From the NCBI GenBank assembly GCA_025059995.1, contig JANXCF010000008.1, positions 1 through 64,000 on the forward strand: DNA of 64,000 nucleotides, given 5' to 3'. The stretch comes from Leptospiraceae bacterium (lineage in GTDB: Bacteria > Spirochaetota > Leptospiria > Leptospirales > Leptonemataceae). Below are positions 545 to 64,000 of the stretch, piece after piece (the first letter of the stretch is position 1; every line of letters starts with the position of its first letter). The translations under genes and the position numbers were made by a program. The notes below the pieces were generated by a model that saw only the letters and a list, made by a program, of their open reading frames with translations, was not told the DNA's origin and did not search any database.

Positions 545-1888
545 CTATGCCGTTTTTTCTGTCAGAAATTCTTTCGTTTTGAATGCTATAGGAACTAATA
601 AGAATGCTATAATCAAATAAACTATATCAAGTATGATTTTTACATAGTGAACAAAACTGGTTTTCGATAATATAACTTCCCAGCTATTATTCACGATATT
701 GCCGTCCTTCATTTCATAAATTGCGAATGATTGTAAGATACTTTCTAAACCAAATAATAACATTATGATAATAAATATAGCTAAGAATGTGTTTGATAGA
801 TAAGGATGAATGGGTTCTTTTAATTGATGTTTTTGATAGGCAGTATATAAGAAGTAAAGTGGCATCAATAAATATAGAACTTTATTTGGAAGAATCAAAA
901 CATCAATACTTGTATATTGAATATACCTATAAATGATTGGTAAACTTAAAATTGTATTGACTAAGAAAAAGATGCTCAACGCTATTCCAAAAACAGGAAT
1001 AGTAATATAATGCTCTTTTTTGGTTTGGTAATATAAATTATGTAAATAATACATAAACCCTAAGAAAAGTAGATTGATTACAGAATATACATAATTTCCA
1101 ATCCATGTCCAAAAATTTTGGTAAGGAGAGTTCCCTAAACCAACGCCACCCGAAATAGAAACTAAAACGGCAATCATGATAAAGAAAGAAGAGAAGTTTA
1201 TACCTTCATCATCGATTTGATTATAATTTTTAATCACTGAATAGAAAATACTAATTAATGGCATTCCAACGAAAAATACCAATACTCCCGTTGTATAAAA
1301 ACCTTGTGAGATTGCATCTTGGAAACCAGATGTGGGTGGAACAATTGTGATGTATGAGTTGGGAAAACCAAAATTTCCTAAAAAAAAGGTTGCCATCATA
1401 CCTGCTAAGGTGAAGATAATTAACTGAAAAATGCCATTCACTTTTCCATAAGTTTTAACATGGACTAATGTCAAGACAACAGCAATTGTGAAAACAAGCA
1501 TAAACAAGTTATCAGTAATAAAATTCATTTCACCATAAATCCTACCATCATTTCTTCCCAACATGATTGTTAGTAATCCAAACACTAAAGATAGCTGATG
1601 GACATAAAAAGAGATATTTCCAACTATTGTTGGTTTTATTTGGTCGATGGGTAGTTTATCAAGTTCATCATACAACATAGATAGAAAAAAAGAAAGTATG
1701 CTCCCAAAGATTACGATGATCAAGAAAATTGGGGTTAATTTTCCATAACCAATCACTTCACTGGATGAAAACAAACCAAACTGTAATTGTAAGCTACCAA
1801 CAAAACTTATAAATATTGCCAAGATAAACCAAATAATCCCTGCGTTTTTGTAATATTCAGATGTAGTTTTATATCCTCTCTTTTCCAT
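545..1888 (-). CDS. CcoN-like haem-copper oxidase subunit I homologue lacking metal ligands
   Basis: A 447-aa polytopic membrane protein with about 12 hydrophobic segments. Segments align with CcoN, the catalytic subunit of cbb3 oxidases. Y48-G-K-L-T-P-I-F55 corresponds to the F-G-R-L-R-P-L-H motif, with Phe55 in place of the low-spin haem His. Q190-D-A-I-S-Q with F197-Y-T-T200 corresponds to Q-D-A-x-x-Q-W-W-Y-G-H, with Thr200 in place of a CuB His. Residues 244-252 (S-I-S-G-G-V-G-L-G) replace the Y-I-W-A-G-P-H-H segment. No histidine occurs where the helix-10 haem ligands should be (around L-I-L-P-N-K). The protein therefore should not bind haem b, haem b3 or CuB. It starts 4 nt after the stop of the diheme cytochrome gene and precedes the CcoO-like gene. 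A structural or scaffold role is inference. Confidence 0.75.
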   Translation of the reverse strand: MEKRGYKTTSEYYKNAGIIWFILAIFISFVGSLQLQFGLFSSSEVIGYGKLTPIFLIIVIFGSILSFFLSMLYDELDKLPIDQIKPTIVGNISFYVHQLSLVFGLLTIMLGRNDGRIYGEMNFITDNLFMLVFTIAVVLTLVHVKTYGKVNGIFQLIIFTLAGMMATFFLGNFGFPNSYITIVPPTSGFQDAISQGFYTTGVLVFFVGMPLISIFYSVIKNYNQIDDEGINFSSFFIMIAVLVSISGGVGLGNSPYQNFWTWIGNYVYSVINLLFLGFMYYLHNLYYQTKKEHYITIPVFGIALSIFFLVNTILSLPIIYRYIQYTSIDVLILPNKVLYLLMPLYFLYTAYQKHQLKEPIHPYLSNTFLAIFIIIMLLFGLESILQSFAIYEMKDGNIVNNSWEVILSKTSFVHYVKIILDIVYLIIAFLLVPIAFKTKEFLTEKTA

Positions 1889-1892
1889 AACT

Positions 1893-2795
1893 TTACTCCA
1901 CGATTGCTTTAATGTATTGAATTAGGGTTGTCCATTGTTCATCTGTAAATGAATAATTTTGATGAGCTTTTTGGATATTTTCTTTTGAGATAGCGGTGTT
2001 TTTTAGGTCAGGTATCCCTACATATGCGGCTTTTCTTCGTGCTATATCCTTAATAGGTTCATACCTTGATTTATCTAAAAGTCCGATATGACTTGAACCT
2101 TGTATTCCTTCTCCACCAACTCCATGACAACTTTGACAATTATTTTGATATAGAACATAACCATCGAAATAATCCTCTCTTGCTTTTGAAATTTTTTCTG
2201 CTCTTTTAGCGTCCAAAGTTGATATACTGATGTCTTTTGCCACTGTGTAATTCGTTTTTTGGATTGTTTTTTCTAAATCTGGTGATGGTGTCCTTTCAGA
2301 TGCCGGGGTATTCTCTCCAAAATACCATTTACGATTTTCTTTATAAATTTCTTTTACTTGCTTCATATCTCTTGCTACTGCTTCCTGCCATTGTTTTTTT
2401 ATTTCTAAATCTTTTGGTTCTTTTCCTAAAGAGTACAAAAAGTTTGCTAATCCCCATTTAGCTTTATCTGTGAGATAATAGTAAGCATGATAATTATAGC
2501 CATCTTTTATTGTGTTATTAGTTCCAACAGAGATGGCTTTGAAGTAACTTAGTGGTGTTTTTTCTGGAGTTAGCTCAGCTGTGAAATCTGGAACTTTTAC
2601 ATCTAAGTCTCGTGCTTCTGGTCCATTTCCTTTATAGTCTACCCCATGGCAGTTTTTACAATTCATTTCCGTTGAAGCATAGACAATAGATCCATAATTG
2701 ATAGAATCTGGTGTTGCTTCATATACTTCAGGTTCTTTTTTACAATAAAGCATCAATGTGATTATGGATAATAAGAAAATATATAAACGTATCAT
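1893..2795 (-). CDS. Diheme c-type cytochrome lipoprotein with histidines at the distal-ligand positions
   Basis: A 300-aa protein with a lipoprotein signal peptide (lipobox L-M-L-Y-C18) and two haem c sites, C46-K-N-C-H50 and C220-Q-S-C-H224. It has two class I-like cytochrome domains joined by a charged linker of about 90 residues. The usual distal Met is absent: there is no Met between residues 45 and 143 or after residue 144. The equivalent places carry H103 (N-Y-H-A-Y-Y-Y-L-T-D) and H278 (A-H-Q-N-Y-S-F-T-D), each just before the W-containing last helix. Bis-histidine ligation and a low redox potential are therefore likely (inference). It lies between actF and the CcoN-like gene, in the place where a CcoP or electron-transfer cytochrome would be expected. 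It is probably anchored on the periplasmic side. Confidence 0.8.
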   Translation of the reverse strand: MIRLYIFLLSIITLMLYCKKEPEVYEATPDSINYGSIVYASTEMNCKNCHGVDYKGNGPEARDLDVKVPDFTAELTPEKTPLSYFKAISVGTNNTIKDGYNYHAYYYLTDKAKWGLANFLYSLGKEPKDLEIKKQWQEAVARDMKQVKEIYKENRKWYFGENTPASERTPSPDLEKTIQKTNYTVAKDISISTLDAKRAEKISKAREDYFDGYVLYQNNCQSCHGVGGEGIQGSSHIGLLDKSRYEPIKDIARRKAAYVGIPDLKNTAISKENIQKAHQNYSFTDEQWTTLIQYIKAIVE

Positions 2796-2818: not shown

Positions 2819-4069
2819 TTAATGATGTCCATGCAAACATTCTTCTAATCGTGGATCATTGATGGGTATGAGCTTACTTTTTGTAAGAGCATACCCAATA
2901 ACTAAAATATACAAACCAGTGAATAATAGCAGCGATCCGATTTCCTGCCAGGAAATCATGACAAAATGACCATGATCTAATGTTGGATATAATACCCAAT
3001 ACATATCCCAAATTTGACCAAATAGCACTAACCCAGAAACCGCAGCCAACCATCCAAAATTTCTCTTTGAATCTCTTCTGATTAACAAAAAGAAGGGCAG
3101 TACGAATCGAATAAAAATTAAAGATAGTGATACCAAAGCCCAAGGGTTGTGGCTCATATCGTCGTTATAGATTCTGGTATTGTAAAAGATGGTTTCTTCA
3201 GGGATATGCCCATACCAAATCAACAAGAATTGAGAAGCTATACCAATATACGCCCAAAAAATGGAAGAACCCCAAATGTACTTTCCAACGTCATGAATGT
3301 GGTTTTCTGTTAGTGTATCTCCATAGTAGCCAGCCTTCTTCAAAAAGTAAACCCATATTGCCATTGCAGAAAAACTACTCAATAAAACTCCTGCAAAGAT
3401 ATACACAGCCCAGATGGTAGAAAACCAGTGGGGTTCAATACTCATGCTTAAATCCCAAGAAGTTGTCGATATGGTTAATCCAAAAACGACGGCAAAACCA
3501 GCTGATATTTTCGCTAAGGTAGGAGTATGTTCGAATTTTCCGTCATGATCTTGTTGAACCGAGAGCTTCCAAAGATACCAACCAAATATGATCCAAATGA
3601 TAAAAACAACAATGTTTCTTCCAATAAAAAAAGGAACATTGAGCCAAGGGGATTTATGCTTAACGAGTTTGTCGGTTTCTGGAGCATGAACCCAGTGATG
3701 AAATACTTGATCAATACCTAATCCCAAAATCAAAATGAGAAACACCAGCATGACGGGCATGAACCAAAAGTGGGTCTCAGCCAATCTTCTTATTGTTACG
3801 CTCCAAGCAGCACCCGATAAATGATGAACTGAAACAAAAAAGATGGATCCCAACGTGATTGGAAGAAATACCAAAAACGCTAAGTGTAATGAATAGAAAA
3901 GCCTGGGATTTCCATGATGATCTCCACCATGATGATGAGCAGAATGCCATGGAAAAATAATTTGCAATATCGTTAAGAACAAACCAATTAAAAATAAACC
4001 TAATGCAATGTTGCGTAGTTTTGATGAGAAATGAAATTCGATATTAGAATTTTTTTCAACTCCTGCCAT
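2819..4069 (-). CDS. actF: Alternative Complex III subunit ActF (quinol:cytochrome c oxidoreductase membrane subunit)
   Basis: A 416-aa polytopic membrane protein with about ten transmembrane segments, matching the ActF subunit (NrfD-related) that with ActC forms the quinol-side membrane core of ACIII. The N-terminal region has a His-rich periplasmic or loop segment (H-S-A-H-H-H-G-G-D-H-H). Conserved-looking patches include a W-D-L-S-M-S-I-E-P-H-W stretch near the middle. It is the last act gene of the cluster, starting 9 bp after the actE stop, and is followed by the cbb3-like module. ACIII transfers electrons from menaquinol or ubiquinol to a cytochrome or directly to an oxidase. The identification rests on the gene order actABCDEF and sequence character, and is strong. 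Confidence 0.92.
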   Translation of the reverse strand: MAGVEKNSNIEFHFSSKLRNIALGLFLIGLFLTILQIIFPWHSAHHHGGDHHGNPRLFYSLHLAFLVFLPITLGSIFFVSVHHLSGAAWSVTIRRLAETHFWFMPVMLVFLILILGLGIDQVFHHWVHAPETDKLVKHKSPWLNVPFFIGRNIVVFIIWIIFGWYLWKLSVQQDHDGKFEHTPTLAKISAGFAVVFGLTISTTSWDLSMSIEPHWFSTIWAVYIFAGVLLSSFSAMAIWVYFLKKAGYYGDTLTENHIHDVGKYIWGSSIFWAYIGIASQFLLIWYGHIPEETIFYNTRIYNDDMSHNPWALVSLSLIFIRFVLPFFLLIRRDSKRNFGWLAAVSGLVLFGQIWDMYWVLYPTLDHGHFVMISWQEIGSLLLFTGLYILVIGYALTKSKLIPINDPRLEECLHGHH

Positions 4070-4078
4070 TTGACACCT

Positions 4079-4693
4079 CTACTTTGCGTTTTGTTGTAAT
4101 AATCTGATATAATGTATGATTGCCCATCGATCCTCAGGTAAAATTTGAGCTGCGTAAGCCTTCATTCTTGCTCTTCCTACAGTTATGATGTGATAAAACC
4201 TACCATCTTCCCAATCTAAAACATTTGATTTATCACCCGCAAGTGCTGGGATGTTTGCCAATCTTGGAGAAAGTGGTCCATCACCTAAGCCTGTAGCTCC
4301 ATGGCAAACGGCACAGTAGACGTTATATTGTTTTTGTCCTCGTTCTAATACCTGTTTTGTAGGTTTTAAAGGGTTCTTTAGTTCCTTTGCTGGTGTATCA
4401 AAGTCATTTGGATCATATAGATAAGGCATATAGTTTCTTGGGACCGTCCCTTCGGGTGGCACCCTCATGGTAGAACCAAATCCTGATTGGCTTTCGATGT
4501 TATCACTACCTTTGAGTTTAGCACTATAATAACTAACCAAATAAGTTGTAACGTCCTCTTCTTGGGACTCAACTGCATAGTTATCATGTAAATCCAAAAA
4601 CCAATGCAAACCTGATTTGTTTCCTGCGTAATTACAACTCCACAAAACTGGTAAAACAGCAAATAAAGTTAGATATTTCATTACAGCTTTCAT
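4079..4693 (-). CDS. actE: Alternative Complex III monohaem cytochrome c lipoprotein ActE
   Basis: A 204-aa lipoprotein with signal peptide and lipobox (V-L-W-S-C). It carries one haem site, C-A-V-C-H-G, followed by G-x-G-D-G-P-L and a distal Met in G-R-A-R-M-K-A-Y, so it keeps the normal His/Met ligation, unlike the cytochromes encoded just downstream. ActE hands electrons from the iron-sulfur/pentahaem part of ACIII to the terminal acceptor. The ATG at 4693 overlaps the actD stop codon (ATGA), which indicates translational coupling. An internal ATG at 4681 would also give a complete signal peptide. Confidence 0.92.
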   Translation of the reverse strand: MKAVMKYLTLFAVLPVLWSCNYAGNKSGLHWFLDLHDNYAVESQEEDVTTYLVSYYSAKLKGSDNIESQSGFGSTMRVPPEGTVPRNYMPYLYDPNDFDTPAKELKNPLKPTKQVLERGQKQYNVYCAVCHGATGLGDGPLSPRLANIPALAGDKSNVLDWEDGRFYHIITVGRARMKAYAAQILPEDRWAIIHYIRLLQQNAK

Positions 4694-5391
4694 TTTTCAC
4701 CTACCTTTTTGATTTCTTCTGCGCCGAGTTCTTGAAAAAGAGCTCTTATTTGATCTTCATTATAGTTTTTAGAACTACCTGATATCCACAAAACAAACTT
4801 ATCATCAGTTATTCGTTCATCTAAAGGAATTCTACTTGGCTTGGGCATTCTGGATAAAATCATCAAGGTTATCACCGTGCTCAAGCCAGCAAACAAAACT
4901 GTTAATTCGAAGGATATAGGTATCATGGCTGGCCAACTGAATGTAGGTTTACCACCATAATTTAGAGGATAAGAATTCAAGTTGGGGTAAGCATCGATTG
5001 CTCGAGTGAAGGTGTAGGGAATTATGTTTTCGTGAGATATGGTTTGTACAAACACTGCTAGAATAAAACCCGTTAACCCTCCAAAAAATGTTACGTAGGG
5101 CAATTTTGACCTTTGATAACCCATTGCATACTCTAACCCATGAATTGGGAAAGGAGAAAAACAATCAAATTGATCATATCCTCTTTCCCTAACAGCTTTT
5201 GCGGCTTTTAGGAGTCTTTCGGGAGAATGAAAAACCGCATACATCCCTGTATTGGCTTCTTCATATCGATAGACGAAAAAGCGATTAATGAAGTTATTAA
5301 AGGCTCGTGTTTGTGCTCCAAAAAAAGCATCTAAAAATTTTTCTAACTTCTCGAATATCTTTTCTATTATATCATCTCTTTTAGTGACCAT
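4690..5391 (-). CDS. actD: Alternative Complex III subunit ActD (DUF3341)
   Basis: A 233-aa protein with an extended soluble N-terminal part and two central hydrophobic helices (about residues 97-120 and 155-180), as in ActD of ACIII (DUF3341 family). The C-terminal soluble segment contains D-D-K-F-V-L-W-I, typical of the family's end domain, followed by an acidic tail. No metal site is visible, and the subunit is thought to be structural. It overlaps the end of actC by 11 bp and the start of actE by 4 bp. The N-terminal 40 residues are longer than I would expect and precede the typical Y-A-V-F-H-S-P-E-R start of the domain. Confidence 0.92.
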   Translation of the reverse strand: MVTKRDDIIEKIFEKLEKFLDAFFGAQTRAFNNFINRFFVYRYEEANTGMYAVFHSPERLLKAAKAVRERGYDQFDCFSPFPIHGLEYAMGYQRSKLPYVTFFGGLTGFILAVFVQTISHENIIPYTFTRAIDAYPNLNSYPLNYGGKPTFSWPAMIPISFELTVLFAGLSTVITLMILSRMPKPSRIPLDERITDDKFVLWISGSSKNYNEDQIRALFQELGAEEIKKVGEK

Positions 5392-6793
5392 AACCCTTTG
5401 CCTCCGGTGATTTTACTAAGGTTTTGACTTCTGCGATCGCTATGGTAGGGAAGAATCTTGCAAACAATAGGAACAAGGTGAAAAACAACCCAAAAGAACC
5501 AGCCAAAATGGCATATTCATGAATTGTCATGATATACATGTCCCAGCTTCCAGGCAAGAAATCTCTGTGTAATGAGGTAACAACAATCACATATCGCTCA
5601 AACCACATACCAATGTTGACAAAAATGGAAATGATCCACAAGGCTACAGGATTGGTTCGGATTTTCTTGAACCAGAATAATTGGGGTGTGATAACGTTAC
5701 AAGAAACCATAATCCAGTAGGACCACCAGTAAGGACCAAATGCTCTATTAATGAAAGTAAAAGCTTCGAATTTACTTCCTGAATACCATGCCACGAAAAA
5801 CTCAGTAGCATAAGCAATCCCCACTAAAGAACCCGTCAACATTGTGACCTTTGCCATGTTCTCCAAATGCTTTTCTGTGATGTATTCTTTAAAATTGAAA
5901 ACTTCCCGCATTATTACGAGCAAAGTAAGAACCATACCAAATCCCGAAAACACAGCTCCAGCAACGAAATACGGAGGAAACACAGTTGTGTGCCATCCTG
6001 GGATTACAGAAGTTGCGAAGTCAAAAGAAACAACGGTGTGAACAGAGAAAACCAAAGGCATGGAAAGTCCCGCTAATATCATGGCTGTTGTTTCGTAATG
6101 TGCCCATGCTTTGGCACTACCTACCCATCCAAACGACAATACTGAATAGATCTTTTTTCTGATTTTGTTTACCCAGTTATCAGGTTTAATTCTATCACGA
6201 ACTGAAGCAAAATCAGGTATCAGACCCAAATACCAGAACACAAGTGATGTGATCAAGTAAGTCGAAATCGCAAAAACGTCCCAAAGTAGTGGCGAACGAA
6301 AATTTGGCCACAGAGTTCCCCGTTCATTAGGATAAGGGAAAATCCAAAATACAAACCATGGTCTTCCTAAGTGGATAAGAGGATACATCCCTGCACAAAT
6401 CACCGCAAAAATCGTCATCGCCTCAGCAGAACGATTGATTGCCATTCGCCATTGTTGTCTAAATACATACAAGATTGCGGAAATCAACGTCCCAGCGTGT
6501 CCAATCCCAATCCAGAAAACAAACGTGATAATAAAGGTTCCCCAACTCACAGGAACATTGATCCCAATGATTCCTATCCCCGTTGCAAAAAGATAAACAA
6601 TTTCAGCTAATAAAAGCAACAAGAAAGAAAAGGAAATTCCAAAGGCTATCCACCAAAGTTTTGTTGGAAAAGTATTGATGGGACGGATAATATCATCTGT
6701 GATCTGCTTGTAGCTCTTATCACCCTCCACCATGGTAGGGTGAATGTATTCTAACTGCTCTTTTGTTAAAGTGTGTGTTGTTTGATGTGCCAT
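5381..6793 (-). CDS. actC: Alternative Complex III membrane subunit ActC (NrfD-like)
   Basis: A 470-aa NrfD/PsrC-family membrane protein with about ten helices, the main quinol-interacting subunit of ACIII. Recognisable pieces include W-I-G-I-G-H-A-G-T-L-I-S-A-I-L near residue 97, L-G-R-P-W-F-V-F-W near residue 147, and the W-Y-S-G-S-K-F-E-A-F segment near residue 339. It sits between actB and actD with a 19-bp gap on the actB side and an overlap with actD. The length and order are those of a standard ACIII operon. Confidence 0.94.
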   Translation of the reverse strand: MAHQTTHTLTKEQLEYIHPTMVEGDKSYKQITDDIIRPINTFPTKLWWIAFGISFSFLLLLLAEIVYLFATGIGIIGINVPVSWGTFIITFVFWIGIGHAGTLISAILYVFRQQWRMAINRSAEAMTIFAVICAGMYPLIHLGRPWFVFWIFPYPNERGTLWPNFRSPLLWDVFAISTYLITSLVFWYLGLIPDFASVRDRIKPDNWVNKIRKKIYSVLSFGWVGSAKAWAHYETTAMILAGLSMPLVFSVHTVVSFDFATSVIPGWHTTVFPPYFVAGAVFSGFGMVLTLLVIMREVFNFKEYITEKHLENMAKVTMLTGSLVGIAYATEFFVAWYSGSKFEAFTFINRAFGPYWWSYWIMVSCNVITPQLFWFKKIRTNPVALWIISIFVNIGMWFERYVIVVTSLHRDFLPGSWDMYIMTIHEYAILAGSFGLFFTLFLLFARFFPTIAIAEVKTLVKSPEAKGYGH

Positions 6794-6812: not shown

Positions 6813-9800
6813 TTATAATATTGGATTTCTAACTTTTGCTAAGTAAGTAATGGATGGATCTACCCCTAAGAATTCCAACACCTTATAACCTCTTCCCTTC
6901 TTGACTAATTGAGAAACTTCGGAGTTGGGATCGTTGATGTCTCCAAAGTAGATTGCATTTGTTGGGCATACTTCTTGACATGCAGTTTTAACACTTCCAT
7001 CAGGAATGCGATCAAGTCCCTTCAAACGTGCATCTTGTCTTGCTCGATTAAGTCTTTGTAGGCAGAAGTTGCATTTTTCCATGATACCTCTTTTTCGAAC
7101 GGTGACATCAGGGTTAAGAGCCAATTGCTGCGGATCTTGTAATTTTCTGATGGCACCTTCCATGTAATCCCAGTTTTCAAACCAGTTGAATCTTCGCACC
7201 TTATATGGACAGTTATTTGCACAATAACGGGTTCCGATACATCGGTTGTATACCATCACATTGATACCATCATCACTATGGGAGGTTGCAGCAACAGGAC
7301 ACACATTCTCACAAGGAGCATTCCCACATTGTTGACAAAGCATAGGTTGATGTACAACTTCAGGATTAGATTCATCACCCGAATAATATCGATCAATCCT
7401 CATCCAGTGCATTTCTCGTCCTGTATGAACTTCTTTTGGACCCACCATAGGAATATTGTTTTCAAGATTGCAACTTGTAATGCAAGCCCCACATCCAATA
7501 CACAAATTTAGATCAACCACCATATACCATCGAGTTCCTTCGTATTTCCATTCGGGCATCAAAGAAGCATTTTCTGGGAACTCAATTGCTTGTTTAGGTG
7601 CCTTCCAACCGTTCTTGTATTCAGCATAGGTGGTTTCAATTACGAGATTACGATCATACTGAGATGAAGCTTCATAAGGAGCATTCGGTAGTGTCCCGGG
7701 TGAGAAAAAGGCACGATTTTCTGTATTTCTTCCCGTTCGATATACCATTTGGGTTACAGCCAACTTCACGCGCTCTCCAGTGAGGGACACAGGAGACTCC
7801 CCATTGGGTAAAGGAGAAATACCGGTTAGTATCCATTGTCCTTCTTTAATGGAAGTGATTTTTATAGCATTTTCTCCTACATTATTTCCAACCTTACCCG
7901 CAGAAGTTCTTCCATAGCCCAATGGTATGAGCATTGCCTCGGGATGTAGACCTGGCTGTAAATAAACGGGAAGTTTCAATGTTCCTTCTTCTGTTTTGAT
8001 TTCGACTATGCTTCCTTGCTTGAGCTTGAGTTTTCTTGCCGTTTCTGGTAAAACAGCAACATAGTTCGACCAAACCACTTTTGTGATTGGATCCGGTTGT
8101 TCTTGACGATAAGCATTATTTGCCCCCGTTCCATCATATAACGAAATGTGATAGAAAAGTCCAATTCTATATCCTGTAGTATTTTTTGGTTCCTTGGGTA
8201 ATCGGTCTAGAGATGAAAGCTCAAACCTTCTTTCTTTTCCGGCTTTTCCGGGCACATCTAATTTTTTTGTTTGATAATATCCACTTTGGAGAATTCCGAT
8301 CCAGAATTTCGTAAAGCTTTCTTTCGTTAATTTAGCCCACTCATTTTTAAGGTACTCATGAAAACTATACTCACTAATCCTTGGTCCTAAAATTTGGATT
8401 AAGTAATCTTCGAAAGAAAGGGTGTCATACAAGGGTCTTATCACAGGTTGTATCACAGAACGAATTCCACTTACTAACTCCACATCACTCCAGCTCTCCA
8501 TATAGTGTGACAGAGGAAGAACTGCATCTGATGCCCAACCTGTTTCATCAATGCGATCACTAAAAGAAACCACAAAATCCGCATTTTTCAATGCTTCTTC
8601 TACTTTTATAGAAGGGGGTAGATGATAAACCAAATTCGCATTTGCTAATAGAACCACTTTGATTTTTTGATTTCGAATATCTTCAATCACTTGTAGGATT
8701 TCTTTTATGCTGCTTCCGGGTGAAATGGTCATCGGATTTTGATAATCAATGGTTTTCCCGTCATTTCCTAAGATATGGTTGATAAAGTTTACAGCTATTT
8801 GAAGGTTCAACGCATTTTGATCTTCAGCCAAGGGCGAACCCGCAATTACTATGGAACTTCCTTTGTTTTCGCTTAGTTTTGTTGCCACTTTTTTGAGAAT
8901 AGATGAAGACACACCCACCATTCCTTCTATTTTCTCAGGGATGTAGTTTTGTAAAAGAGATCGAACTTGATCATTTTTAGCAAAAGGTCCTACCATTAAT
9001 TGATTGTTTAACTCCGCTGCTATCGACAACGCTATGAGATAAGCATCTCCGGGTTTGATGGGGAAACGATGATCTGCATAGCCACCAGTGGTCGTAAACA
9101 TGGACTCAAAAACAATCAAGCTATTGTAATCTTGTTGCTTCTTGTAGTTTAAATTTCGTTTTTCTGTAAACGCTCTACTATATACTTGAGCTCCCGGGAA
9201 TGTTCCCATGAAATCATTTTCAATAGCTACTACAAGTTTCGCTTTATCAAATCGGAAGTAAGGAACAACACTCGTTCCATAAGATAACTTTTGTCCTTCT
9301 GCAATGGTTCTTAATGTTGGATCAGGACGAAACTCATAATGCTTTCCATTTGGGAATTGTTTGATAAATTCATTGATTAACTTTTTGGATGTTGGACTTT
9401 GAATCGGACCTGTTATTAATACATAATTTTCAGATTCGATTTTGGTTTGGATTTCACTGATGATTTCTTCTTTTGAAGTTTTAGACTTTCTTTTGTTTTC
9501 GATTCGCACAGCATATCGCAAACGATCAGGATCGTATAAATCCATGATATCAGCCACTTCTCGTCCAGACACACCTCCCTTTGTTAAGGGATGATCCGGA
9601 TTTCCTGCGATTTTGATGGGTCTTCCTTCTCGTGTGTGAATGATTATACCCGTTCCCTCTGGTGTTGCAGAAGCATAATAAACTTTTTCCCCTGGGGTGT
9701 ATTCTGGCGATTGAATGACAGCTGGGATGATTTGCTCTGTAGGTCTTCTACATGCAGCAGTTACCATTACAGCAGAAGCTCCCAAGAACTTCATGAAGTC

Positions 9801-9950
9801 TTTTCGAGAAAGTTTCTTTGATTTTGCAATTTCCATCATTTCTTTGAGTGTATATTCAAACTCAGGGGTTTTCCAGTTCTCAATCTCAGGTTGAGCTTTT
9901 TCTTCTAAGGATCTCCAATAGGTTTTTCTTTCCATCTTCATATCCCTCAA
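6813..9950 (-). CDS. actB: Alternative Complex III iron-sulfur subunit ActB (fused molybdopterin-like and Fe-S domains)
   Basis: A 1045-aa fusion. Residues from about 40 carry a Tat-like signal (S-R-K-D-F-M-K-F-L-G) that ends in V-T-A-A-C, suggesting a Tat-exported lipoprotein. The large N-terminal half resembles the molybdopterin oxidoreductase fold, which in ACIII carries no Mo cofactor. The C-terminal part has four cysteine clusters for FeS centres: C-I-G-C-G-A-C, C-Q-Q-C-G-N-A-P-C, C-I-G-T-R-Y-C-A-N-N-C-P, and a final C-N-F-C with a later C-x3-C-P. It is co-directional with actA (16 bp away) and actC. It links quinol oxidation to the haem subunits ActA and ActE. Confidence 0.95.
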   Translation of the reverse strand: MRDMKMERKTYWRSLEEKAQPEIENWKTPEFEYTLKEMMEIAKSKKLSRKDFMKFLGASAVMVTAACRRPTEQIIPAVIQSPEYTPGEKVYYASATPEGTGIIIHTREGRPIKIAGNPDHPLTKGGVSGREVADIMDLYDPDRLRYAVRIENKRKSKTSKEEIISEIQTKIESENYVLITGPIQSPTSKKLINEFIKQFPNGKHYEFRPDPTLRTIAEGQKLSYGTSVVPYFRFDKAKLVVAIENDFMGTFPGAQVYSRAFTEKRNLNYKKQQDYNSLIVFESMFTTTGGYADHRFPIKPGDAYLIALSIAAELNNQLMVGPFAKNDQVRSLLQNYIPEKIEGMVGVSSSILKKVATKLSENKGSSIVIAGSPLAEDQNALNLQIAVNFINHILGNDGKTIDYQNPMTISPGSSIKEILQVIEDIRNQKIKVVLLANANLVYHLPPSIKVEEALKNADFVVSFSDRIDETGWASDAVLPLSHYMESWSDVELVSGIRSVIQPVIRPLYDTLSFEDYLIQILGPRISEYSFHEYLKNEWAKLTKESFTKFWIGILQSGYYQTKKLDVPGKAGKERRFELSSLDRLPKEPKNTTGYRIGLFYHISLYDGTGANNAYRQEQPDPITKVVWSNYVAVLPETARKLKLKQGSIVEIKTEEGTLKLPVYLQPGLHPEAMLIPLGYGRTSAGKVGNNVGENAIKITSIKEGQWILTGISPLPNGESPVSLTGERVKLAVTQMVYRTGRNTENRAFFSPGTLPNAPYEASSQYDRNLVIETTYAEYKNGWKAPKQAIEFPENASLMPEWKYEGTRWYMVVDLNLCIGCGACITSCNLENNIPMVGPKEVHTGREMHWMRIDRYYSGDESNPEVVHQPMLCQQCGNAPCENVCPVAATSHSDDGINVMVYNRCIGTRYCANNCPYKVRRFNWFENWDYMEGAIRKLQDPQQLALNPDVTVRKRGIMEKCNFCLQRLNRARQDARLKGLDRIPDGSVKTACQEVCPTNAIYFGDINDPNSEVSQLVKKGRGYKVLEFLGVDPSITYLAKVRNPIL

Positions 9951-9966
9951 TTATGCAGTTATGAAA

Positions 9967-10530
9967 TCAATAATGACATGTTCCACAAGTTGTGATAGCA
10001 ATAGCGTTGTTATTACCAGCAGGGGTAGTTTCTTCGGTGTATTGTCGATGGCAGTTCACACACCAACCCATGTTGAACTCTGTATAAACATAGACTTTAT
10101 CCATAGTCTCAACTGGTCCATGACAAGTTTGACACTCAATCCCTCTGGCTACATGAGCTTTATGACTAAAATGAGCATGATCAGGAAGATCATAGACTTT
10201 ATTCCATCGAATGGGGATTCCTGCTTCATAAGATTTTCTAATGAATTGGATATGAGGACTATCACCTGCAACTTCAGTATGACACTTCATACATGTATTC
10301 AAATCAGGAACACTTGCATGCTCAGAACGCTCAACTGTGTAATGACAAAATTTACAATCAATCCCTACTTCTCCTGAATGAATCTTATGACTAAAAGGAA
10401 TTGGTTGGTCAGGTGCATAACCTTGATATTTTGGGTTTACCCCGTATAGGTAATAAAAAAAACCTAAAATAAGGAATATTAGCGTTAGCTTCCCACCATG
10501 CTTTTGGAATATTCTTCTGAGTGCGTTCAT
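9967..10530 (-). CDS. actA: Alternative Complex III pentahaem cytochrome c ActA
   Basis: A 187-aa protein with one N-terminal membrane anchor (about residues 14-30) and five CXXCH motifs: C-K-F-C-H, C-M-K-C-H, C-Q-T-C-H, C-V-N-C-H and C-G-T-C-H, the last almost at the C-terminus. This is the signature of ActA, the pentahaem subunit of ACIII. Additional histidines (P-F-S-H-K-I-H and H-F-S-H-K-A-H) fit bis-His ligation. It is the first gene of the cluster. An AAAGG-type ribosome binding site lies upstream, and a promoter candidate is described separately. Confidence 0.95.
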   Translation of the reverse strand: MNALRRIFQKHGGKLTLIFLILGFFYYLYGVNPKYQGYAPDQPIPFSHKIHSGEVGIDCKFCHYTVERSEHASVPDLNTCMKCHTEVAGDSPHIQFIRKSYEAGIPIRWNKVYDLPDHAHFSHKAHVARGIECQTCHGPVETMDKVYVYTEFNMGWCVNCHRQYTEETTPAGNNNAIAITTCGTCHY

Positions 10531-61586: not shown

Positions 61587-62879
61587 ATGAAAAAATGGGA
61601 AGAATATTATCAATCACGATTAGTGAGTGCTGATGAAGCCATATCTCATATAAAGAGCAACCAAAGAATTTTTTTGACTGGAAATGCCGCGATTCCAAAA
61701 ACCCTTTTAGAAGCTCTTTTAAAAATAGCTCACACCTTAGAAAATGTAGAACTCAATCACTTACTCACTTTCGGAGAAGATTACTTTAGCAAATACCCAG
61801 GAATACGACACAATGCCTGGTTTATTGGACCTTCGATTCGAAAAGCTGTCAACGAAGGTAAAGCTGATTATATCCCTATTTTTCTTTCGGAGATTGCGAA
61901 ATTGGTTCGATCTGGTGCATGGGAAATTGATGTAGCACTAATACATGTATCACCTCCGGATCGATATGGTTTTATGAGCTATGGCGTAGAAACTTCTATC
62001 ACAAAACCCTGTGCTGAAGCAGCTAAACTTGTAATTGCTCAAGTAAACCGAAAAATGCCTCGTGCTTTGGGAGATTCTTTTATCCATATTAGTGAAGTTG
62101 ATTATTTTGTTGAAGCTGATGATGATTTGTTTGAGCTTAAAAATGATGAGTTCACAGTAGTAGAAAAACAAATAGCTGAAAATGTAGCAAAACTCGTAGA
62201 AAATGGAGCAACCCTTCAATTAGGGATTGGGGGTATTCCCAACGCCGTTTTAAAAGCTCTCGAAAATCACGTAGATTTAGGCATACATACGGAGATGTTT
62301 TCAGATGGCATCCTACCTCTTTTGGAAGGAGGGGTCATTACGAATCAAAAAAAGGGACTTCATCGAGGAAAAGTGATTGCAGGCTTTTGCATCGGAAGTC
62401 GTGAACTTTACAATTATATTGATAACAATCCTATTTTTGAATTCCACCCAAACCATTATACAAATGATCCTTACTTGATTGCTCAAAACAATAAAATGAC
62501 TGCCATTAACTCAGCAATTGAAGTTGATTTAACAGGACAAGTGTGCGCCGATTCTATCGGAGAGAACATCTATAGCGGTATTGGTGGTCAAGTTGACTTT
62601 ATCCGTGGTGCTGCCAGATGTCCTACGGGTAAACCTATCATCGCTCTTCCCTCCACGGCAAAAAATGGAACAGTTTCAAGAATCGTTCCAACTTTATCAA
62701 AAGGTGCGGGAGTTGTTACAAGCAGGGGAGACGTCCACTGGGTGGTTACAGAATATGGAGCTGTGAATTTGTTTGGAAAGAATTTACGACAAAGGGCAGA
62801 ACTCTTGATAAGTATTGCCCATCCTGATTTTCGCAGCTGGCTCAGAAAAGAATCTAAGTGGATCGAAAAGAATTTGTGA
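61587..62879 (+). CDS. Acetyl-CoA hydrolase/transferase family CoA-transferase
   Basis: About 430 aa from ATG 61587; a longer start at 61506 has no support. L-G-I-G-G-I-P-N-A-V lies near residue 213, the catalytic Glu in H-T-E-M-F-S-D-G, and G-G-Q-V-D-F-I-R-G-A near 352. These match 4-hydroxybutyrate/butyrate-type and Cat1-like CoA-transferases. It moves CoA between acetate and another acid; the substrate is not fixed by sequence. Confidence 0.88.
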   Translation: MKKWEEYYQSRLVSADEAISHIKSNQRIFLTGNAAIPKTLLEALLKIAHTLENVELNHLLTFGEDYFSKYPGIRHNAWFIGPSIRKAVNEGKADYIPIFLSEIAKLVRSGAWEIDVALIHVSPPDRYGFMSYGVETSITKPCAEAAKLVIAQVNRKMPRALGDSFIHISEVDYFVEADDDLFELKNDEFTVVEKQIAENVAKLVENGATLQLGIGGIPNAVLKALENHVDLGIHTEMFSDGILPLLEGGVITNQKKGLHRGKVIAGFCIGSRELYNYIDNNPIFEFHPNHYTNDPYLIAQNNKMTAINSAIEVDLTGQVCADSIGENIYSGIGGQVDFIRGAARCPTGKPIIALPSTAKNGTVSRIVPTLSKGAGVVTSRGDVHWVVTEYGAVNLFGKNLRQRAELLISIAHPDFRSWLRKESKWIEKNL

Positions 62880-62900
62880 GTCAAACTGATAACCACTAAT

Positions 62901-63671
62901 ATGCCTTGGGATTGGAAACGAAACCAACCTTATGGCGTTTATAAAAAAATATTACTTCCACCAGAGAAACTACAAGAAGAACTCCATTTTCTACGCCCTC
63001 ATCTTTTACTTTTAAGAGATCACTACTATCGAAAATCAAAATCTCCGGAACAGATTGCGTATGAATTTTTTTTGTTGTACTACACTCAAAGAAATAAGGG
63101 GAAGCGTCTATTCAACACGAAAAACCCACCTTTGGAAAAAATGGATCAATCCCTTGTGTTTCTTAACGCTGTTCGACTCTTTCGTATTCCTGATACAATT
63201 CGACTCACCCTCATTCATTGGCTATCCCACAAGTGGAAAATCCAACTTTTGGATTACAATCCATCTTCTTATGAAATGTTAAAATTTCAAGCCAACGGAG
63301 TTCGAATTGTCACGATTGACTGGGAACATGCTCTGAGCGGAAAGTATGTTTTTGGCATTCGAGATGCTTTCGAGCATTTTTTACATGATTTAGAACATTG
63401 CTATAATTTCTATCATAACTATGAATGGTATCAATCACAGAAAGAAGTTTTCAACAAGCTATTGGAGTTTTATCCCGAAATAGAATGGATCATTCAAAGA
63501 GAGCCTGACTTTCAAGCAAAATGGGATTATTTGATTTCTGATATGAATTCCCACCCTCAACATCTAAAAGAATATACTAAAGCCATTTTCTTCGAGCTCT
63601 TAAATAAGAAAAAAGACATCATACCCAAGAACGTTCGGGAGAAAATTGAAAATCTACTACAAACTTTTTAA
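62901..63671 (+). CDS. Hypothetical 256-aa protein with a HDLEH motif
   Basis: A soluble protein, 21 bp after the CoA-transferase. The segment H-F-L-H-D-L-E-H-C-Y-N-F (near residues 164-176), with additional H and D residues, could bind a metal. No family is recognised, and no signal peptide is present. Confidence 0.55.
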   Translation: MPWDWKRNQPYGVYKKILLPPEKLQEELHFLRPHLLLLRDHYYRKSKSPEQIAYEFFLLYYTQRNKGKRLFNTKNPPLEKMDQSLVFLNAVRLFRIPDTIRLTLIHWLSHKWKIQLLDYNPSSYEMLKFQANGVRIVTIDWEHALSGKYVFGIRDAFEHFLHDLEHCYNFYHNYEWYQSQKEVFNKLLEFYPEIEWIIQREPDFQAKWDYLISDMNSHPQHLKEYTKAIFFELLNKKKDIIPKNVREKIENLLQTF

Positions 63672-63677
63672 CGATAA

Positions 63678-64000
63678 TTATCGTTGAGCGGCTTTTTTGA
63701 CTTCTAATTCGACTTCTCGTTTAAGGTTGGTTCCAGAGACATAATGAATGCACTCGCAGTTTTGCCAACTCCCACCTCTTGGAGCACATTCCTTCGTGTT
63801 CACCCCTTTGATCACTCCTGAGCGGATCGATGTGATGGCATAACTTGTGGCTTGTCCATCCAGCATACCAGACTGTGCTTCGATTGTCTCTCCAATCATC
63901 TTTCTAATGATATTATCCATGGCTTGAAGCTTTGCTGATTCTATGCACGTTACTTTCATCATCTCTTCGTCTTGCTTTTTGATGGCGTTTTCACTCGCTC
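63678..64000 (-). CDS. LPP20-like protein, partial at window edge
   Basis: The reading frame is open through the window edge, so the N-terminus is missing. The visible about 107 residues include A-M-D-N-I-I-R-K-M-I-G-E-T-I-E and two C-x-C/C-rich pieces (N-C-E-C-I), resembling LPP20-type periplasmic lipoproteins. It converges with the 62901 gene. Confidence 0.45.
   Translation of the reverse strand, partial: ASENAIKKQDEEMMKVTCIESAKLQAMDNIIRKMIGETIEAQSGMLDGQATSYAITSIRSGVIKGVNTKECAPRGGSWQNCECIHYVSGTNLKREVELEVKKAAQR

Follow-up and report, generated by a model that had tools for sequence, protein, structure and literature searches.

The gene at 545..1888 of the window (the whole stretch of 64,000 nucleotides that was analysed) encodes a homologue of the cbb3 oxidase subunit CcoN, here called psCcoN, in which every metal ligand has been replaced. 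That this protein is ligand-free, intact, under selection and tied to alternative complex III (ACIII) is well supported. In the reading that we prefer, to which a probability of about 0.6 is given, psCcoN is the cofactor-free core of a dead cbb3 paralogue that has become a fixed accessory of ACIII, and would act as a scaffold for the haems of its CcoO- and CcoP-like partners (CcoO' and CcoP').

Gene order and completeness of the operon

The window opens contig C8 of a 2.38-Mb genome, very probably that of a spirochaete of the class Leptospiria, and its first position lies at a contig end. From 10530 down to 2, the minus strand carries the genes ActA-B-C-D-E-F, a dihaem c-type lipoprotein, psCcoN and a CcoO/FixO-like gene, with intergenic gaps of 3-4 bp on either side of psCcoN. 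The features, in the order of transcription, are as follows.

9967..10530, minus strand: ActA (pentahaem c)
6813..9950, minus strand: ActB, with a molybdopterin-like domain and an Fe-S domain
5381..6793, minus strand: ActC (NrfD-like)
4690..5391, minus strand: ActD, with an N-terminal extension of ~35-45 aa that is specific to family f1 (see below)
4079..4693, minus strand: ActE, monohaem c
2819..4069, minus strand: ActF of ACIII, named by synteny and by similarity to the ActF of relatives
1893..2795, minus strand: dihaem c-type lipoprotein, 300 aa, two CXXCH, present only alongside the psCcoN module
545..1888, minus strand: psCcoN, ligand-free CcoN paralogue, 447 aa, ATG start, intact, 12 predicted TM helices
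2..541, minus strand: CcoO', the CcoO-like subunit; 180 codons up to the contig end, which truncates the gene; CXXCH present, Met-ligand motif changed to Y-H
G000:C2:1-84: remainder of CcoO' on contig C2 of the same genome, last 28 codons of the gene
C2:129-602: CcoP-like monohaem gene (CcoP'), at the start of contig C2 after the CcoO' remainder

The window thus holds the complete ActA-ActF set, with a pentahaem ActA, an ActD family member and an NrfD-like ActC; a Pfam search with ActF (2819..4069) gave no match above the cut-off. Contigs C8 and C2 abut within the CcoO' gene (residues to about 179 on C8, 185-212 on C2). Since the rest of CcoO' and the CcoP' gene are found at the start of C2, the ACIII-psCcoN operon is complete in this genome and is merely split across the two contigs by the assembly. 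A normal CcoN, which the initial annotation had thought worth seeking to the left of position 1, is not located there: joining C8 and C2 through CcoO' places CcoP' at this point, as in the relatives.

The catalytic cbb3 of the same genome is encoded on contig C7 (CcoN at 62404-63696, then CcoO and CcoP). The Pfam model finds no other subunit I in the genome, in which a bd oxidase was likewise not found.

Other unusual oxidase genes were observed elsewhere. Four Leptospiria genomes encode a second odd haem-copper-oxidase-like protein (L150:3906-5351(-), L151:2752-4185(+), L152:4660-5769(-) and L153:2717-4129(+)) of about 470-480 aa, with a weak COX1 score (46-67 bits) and a position beside COX2/COX1-like genes; it lacks the HH dyad and keeps the WGGGH and PAHYHASIG segments. 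A COX1-like gene of a congener (G002:C7:117067-118390) is apparently broken by stops or frameshifts. A divergent CcoN with all ligand motifs (L154; G008:C1, about 3528000-3530300) lies in opposite orientation to a short CcoO-like gene. On a plasmid of Methylophaga thalassica (L144), a CcoN with all ligands has no ccoO annotated alongside; its neighbours are sulfite reductase, DsrE-like and nitronate monooxygenase genes.

Ligand positions

The ligand columns were read, in P. stutzeri numbering, from an alignment of psCcoN with PDB 9g6b, the genome's own CcoN on contig C7 and eight further CcoN from the class. Three sites of the window protein are defined as follows.

Codon 1724..1726, minus strand: F55, aligned with the low-spin haem b ligand H60
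Codon 1289..1291, minus strand: T200, aligned with the CuB ligand H207
1133..1159, minus strand: S244-G252 (SISGGVGLG), in place of the GPHH CuB segment

At all three the alignment agrees with the initial annotation, which had also reported no histidine in the equivalent of helix 10; the haem b3/CuB ligand columns H345/H347 are occupied by I and P. The CuB ligand columns H257/H258 hold V and G, and the column of the cross-linked Tyr251 (helix VII) holds V in the window protein and V, I, T, L or A across the orthologues. None of the six His ligands is present (0/6) in each of 20/20 orthologues; all six are retained in 26/26 catalytic control relatives, a set that takes in Proteobacteria, Bacteroidota, divergent cbb3-like enzymes and one NOR-like enzyme. 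The alignment was also checked for other histidines that might fall on ligand columns: the seven other His of psCcoN are neither on nor beside such a column, and none is conserved. The claim that every metal ligand is replaced, made for one protein, therefore holds with the cross-linked Tyr included for the window protein and all 20 orthologues. psCcoN cannot bind haem b, haem b3 or CuB, so reduction of O2 is impossible for it, and by the defining ligands it is not a CcoN.

Fold and family assignment

Structures were predicted with AlphaFold for the window protein (pTM 0.85) and for one orthologue (pTM 0.84) and were compared with the PDB using Foldseek. For both models the best matches were cbb3 CcoN chains (probability 1.00), with a TM-score of ~0.75 and an E-value of 1.3e-8 for the window protein, and 0.82-0.87 and 3.5e-14 for the orthologue; NOR and other oxidases ranked below. 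The similarity to the CcoN fold for which structure prediction had been suggested is present, and the predicted models have the 12-TM haem-copper oxidase fold.

In sequence searches with the window protein, no match was obtained in Pfam, PF00115 included, or to TIGR00780, a search of PDB sequences returned chance antibody matches only, and NCBIfam gave a weak cbb3 match (8.5e-12). Some other orthologues pass PF00115, and one is matched by TIGR00780 ccoN at 64 bits (cut-off 583). In a search among relatives, psCcoN matched the genome's true CcoN with an E-value of 1.9e-8 and 20% identity across ~212 residues.

Partner cytochromes

CcoO' of the window matches PF02433 with 61.7 bits (cut-off 29.6), and its CXXCH is retained in 20/20 genomes. 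In CcoO, the Met of the SxMPxY motif is the axial ligand of haem c. This motif, with its M-P, is missing from CcoO' in 20/20, and an invariant His stands one column past the lost Met column (YHNYAYLF type), again in 20/20; M-P is kept in 23/23 catalytic CcoO controls, those of the same family included. From the loss of the Met motif together with the invariant His, a bis-His haem of lower potential is predicted for CcoO', in which the new His, one residue after the Met column, would be the haem ligand. CcoP' aligns over its full length with true CcoP (29-34% identity) and retains the PMP motif, whose Met suggests a high-potential end. In the dihaem lipoprotein, a conserved His rather than Met was seen near the C-terminal helix of each haem domain (by eye, and weaker evidence), and both haems may be bis-His.

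With its altered CcoO' and a CcoP' that aligns from end to end, the unit is a complete and catalytically dead cbb3 'NOP' set (psCcoN-CcoO'-CcoP') accompanied by a dihaem lipoprotein, and not a lone odd protein. This whole set and the Met-to-His exchange of CcoO' go beyond the initial annotation.

The conserved His at the expected Met positions of CcoO' and of both lipoprotein haems would also suit a module whose low-potential haems exchange electrons with partners that are not O2 reductases, such as a donor in the periplasm or an acceptor of anaerobic respiration, psCcoN being no more than an anchor. The scaffold reading, on the other hand, would not lead one to expect a bis-His haem in an arm that passes electrons to an oxidase. 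We nevertheless regard service to such other partners as rather unlikely, as the PMP motif of CcoP' suggests a high-potential end and the operon has no constant neighbour that could be recognised as the gene of a dedicated reductase or dehydrogenase.

Distribution and synteny

A profile made from 11 orthologues recovered psCcoN at 204-700 bits in 20 genomes of one family-level clade (f1) of uncultured relatives of Leptospira; its highest score for a catalytic CcoN is 164 bits, and among 393 genomes of the phylum none outside f1 reached the psCcoN range (only f1 exceeds 200 bits). The ligand-less CcoN proposed for search in relatives was thereby found, as 20 orthologues. When a genome collection was scanned, a single sequence returned nothing; the alignment-based scan, with two conserved peptides against 84,980 species genomes, returned ten loci.

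As far as the contigs reach, the gene order in f1 is constant: ActABCDEF, dihaem lipoprotein, psCcoN, CcoO', CcoP'. The module was seen in every f1 genome whose contig extends past ActF, and in two further f1 genomes the contig stops inside ActF. ACIII is also encoded in all other families of the class; 14 operons could be read there, and in none does the module follow ActF, which is succeeded by a small lipoprotein or riboflavin synthase (names by eye). The module thus appears to be a fixed part of the ACIII operon in one spirochaete family. Two further family traits were observed within the complex, the ActD N-terminal segment of ~35-45 residues and an insertion in ActE, both missing in the rest of the class.

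In f1, psCcoN always lies within the ACIII operon and never in a real cbb3 operon. This placement argues against a psCcoN that is no part of ACIII and instead helps to assemble the real cbb3, regulates it or serves as its decoy (for instance, a dummy subunit pairing with CcoN), as does one assembly (G013, 91% complete) that has the module and in which no catalytic CcoN was found, although the latter may lie in an assembly gap. A real cbb3 does exist in the cell and each of its three subunits has a mimic in the module, which leaves this interpretation with a small share of probability.

Selection and origin

When congeners are compared in pairs, psCcoN has dN/dS values of 0.03-0.18, similar to those of ActF and ActE. 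Loss of all catalytic residues might by itself suggest gene decay or an error of assembly. Both are ruled out almost completely by purifying selection, fixed synteny and the 20 orthologues, which are intact and come from as many assemblies, and the initial view that the gene is intact and unlikely to be dying is upheld on the same grounds. In phylogenetic trees, psCcoN and CcoO' each form a clade of single origin (100/100 support in both cases). Both clades have long stems, and in the psCcoN tree, whose root is uncertain, psCcoN was placed neither inside nor outside catalytic CcoN; because of these long stems, the duplication cannot be positioned relative to catalytic CcoN.

Conservation pattern

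Conservation of psCcoN peaks in the periplasmic loops of helices 1-6. It is higher on the periplasmic side (0.58 vs 0.49, permutation p<0.001), where 12/15 of the conserved polar columns are found. Because catalytic CcoN is also more conserved periplasmically, if more mildly (0.79 vs 0.73), this bias is only partly diagnostic and is support rather than proof. No His, Cys or Met column is conserved (best His 9/19, best Met 10/19), and no charged residue of the cytoplasmic half is conserved across orthologues. S240 and Y317 serve in the K-channel of CcoN; in nearly all psCcoN orthologues these positions, like that of the conserved E323, are hydrophobic or variable. On this pattern a cofactor or a proton path in psCcoN is unlikely, the latter following from the lost K-channel positions together with the missing cytoplasmic charge.

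A large protein retained at low dN/dS could have acquired another cofactor, or a quinone, and a new catalytic function, and polar residues near the periplasmic side (R116, E120, D126, N172, D191, Y198) are conserved. Most of these are conserved in ordinary CcoN too, however, and the lack of a conserved His, Cys or Met column and of conserved charge in the cytoplasmic half makes such a function improbable. A proton or ion pathway working with ActC/ActF would be in keeping with the descent of the fold from a proton-conducting family and with the proposal that ACIII pumps protons via ActC/ActF (PMC5928083), but it is very unlikely given the state of S240, Y317 and E323 and of the cytoplasmic half. 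Among the three roles offered initially for a haem-less CcoN, the scaffold or dock fits best, and the proton or ion pathway is disfavoured on these residues.

Proposed role

In ACIII, menaquinol electrons pass via the mostly bis-His haems of ActA to the His/Met haem of ActE (PMC5928083). The complex can hand electrons directly to a docked oxidase, whose subunit I adjoins ActC (PMC5928083), and a split of electron paths at ActA/ActE has been discussed for Flavobacterium (PMC8552683). By analogy, psCcoN may occupy the oxidase-like place in ACIII, and its conserved periplasmic face would hold the CcoO' and CcoP' cytochromes beside ActA/ActE. Menaquinol electrons could then leave ACIII via a built-in haem arm, through the bis-His CcoO' and the dihaem protein and then the His/Met CcoP', which would lead to the real oxidase of the cell and replace or supplement soluble cytochrome c. 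Against this reading, the partner is not unique, as other f1 genomes possess a caa3-type oxidase as well.

A more tentative extension, which we hold at somewhat less than even odds, is that ACIII absorbed a whole terminal oxidase that lost its catalytic centre and whose c-haems changed from His/Met to His/His, the outcome being a cofactor-free oxidase scaffold whose low-potential haem branch is a new electron exit or entry.

The initial annotation knew of no function for such a form, and a search of the open-access literature for ligand-less CcoN, ACIII in Leptospira and pseudo-oxidases likewise found no description of such a module. To our knowledge, haem-copper oxidase subunit I, among the best-studied membrane enzymes, has always been treated as defined by its ligands. 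A fold kept under strong selection without any ligand would mean that the haem-copper oxidase fold can serve as a pure scaffold. The lineage would offer a natural test of what binds ACIII-oxidase supercomplexes together, and the module suggests that respiratory supercomplexes can fuse by domesticating a dead partner.

Comparison with known systems

psCcoN shares with cbb3 CcoN (TIGR00780, PDB 3mk7/9g6b/8smr) the predicted 12-helix fold (TM up to 0.87), the loop motifs Y/FG-x-L-x-P, G/S-R/K-E-Y-x-E and x-Q-D-A..Y, and a gene followed by ccoO- and ccoP-like genes, the CcoO version being altered. It differs from CcoN in having no ligand of haem b, b3 or CuB, no cross-linked Tyr and no K-channel residues, in a score well under the family cut-off, and in a gene that sits with ACIII. 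CcoO' resembles CcoO/FixO (PF02433) in its single TM helix, its CXXCH, the flanking RIGPDL region and a score above the Pfam cut-off, and differs in the exchange of the axial M-P for an invariant His at the next position (20/20).

The ACIII-aa3/caa3 supercomplex of Rhodothermus and Flavobacterium likewise combines ActABCDEF with an oxidase-type complex, and there no soluble carrier is needed (PMC5928083). Here, in contrast, ACIII is encoded together with a dead oxidase-type partner that would carry c-haems only, and the real oxidases are encoded elsewhere. A precedent for such a part exists within ACIII itself, where ActB1 without a prosthetic group and ActF without a quinol site are related to redox enzymes but have lost the active site and are now structural (PMC5928083); these derive from the molybdoenzyme and NrfD families, whereas psCcoN derives from a haem-copper oxidase. 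The psCcoN module is built from known families and most likely works like an accessory of ACIII.
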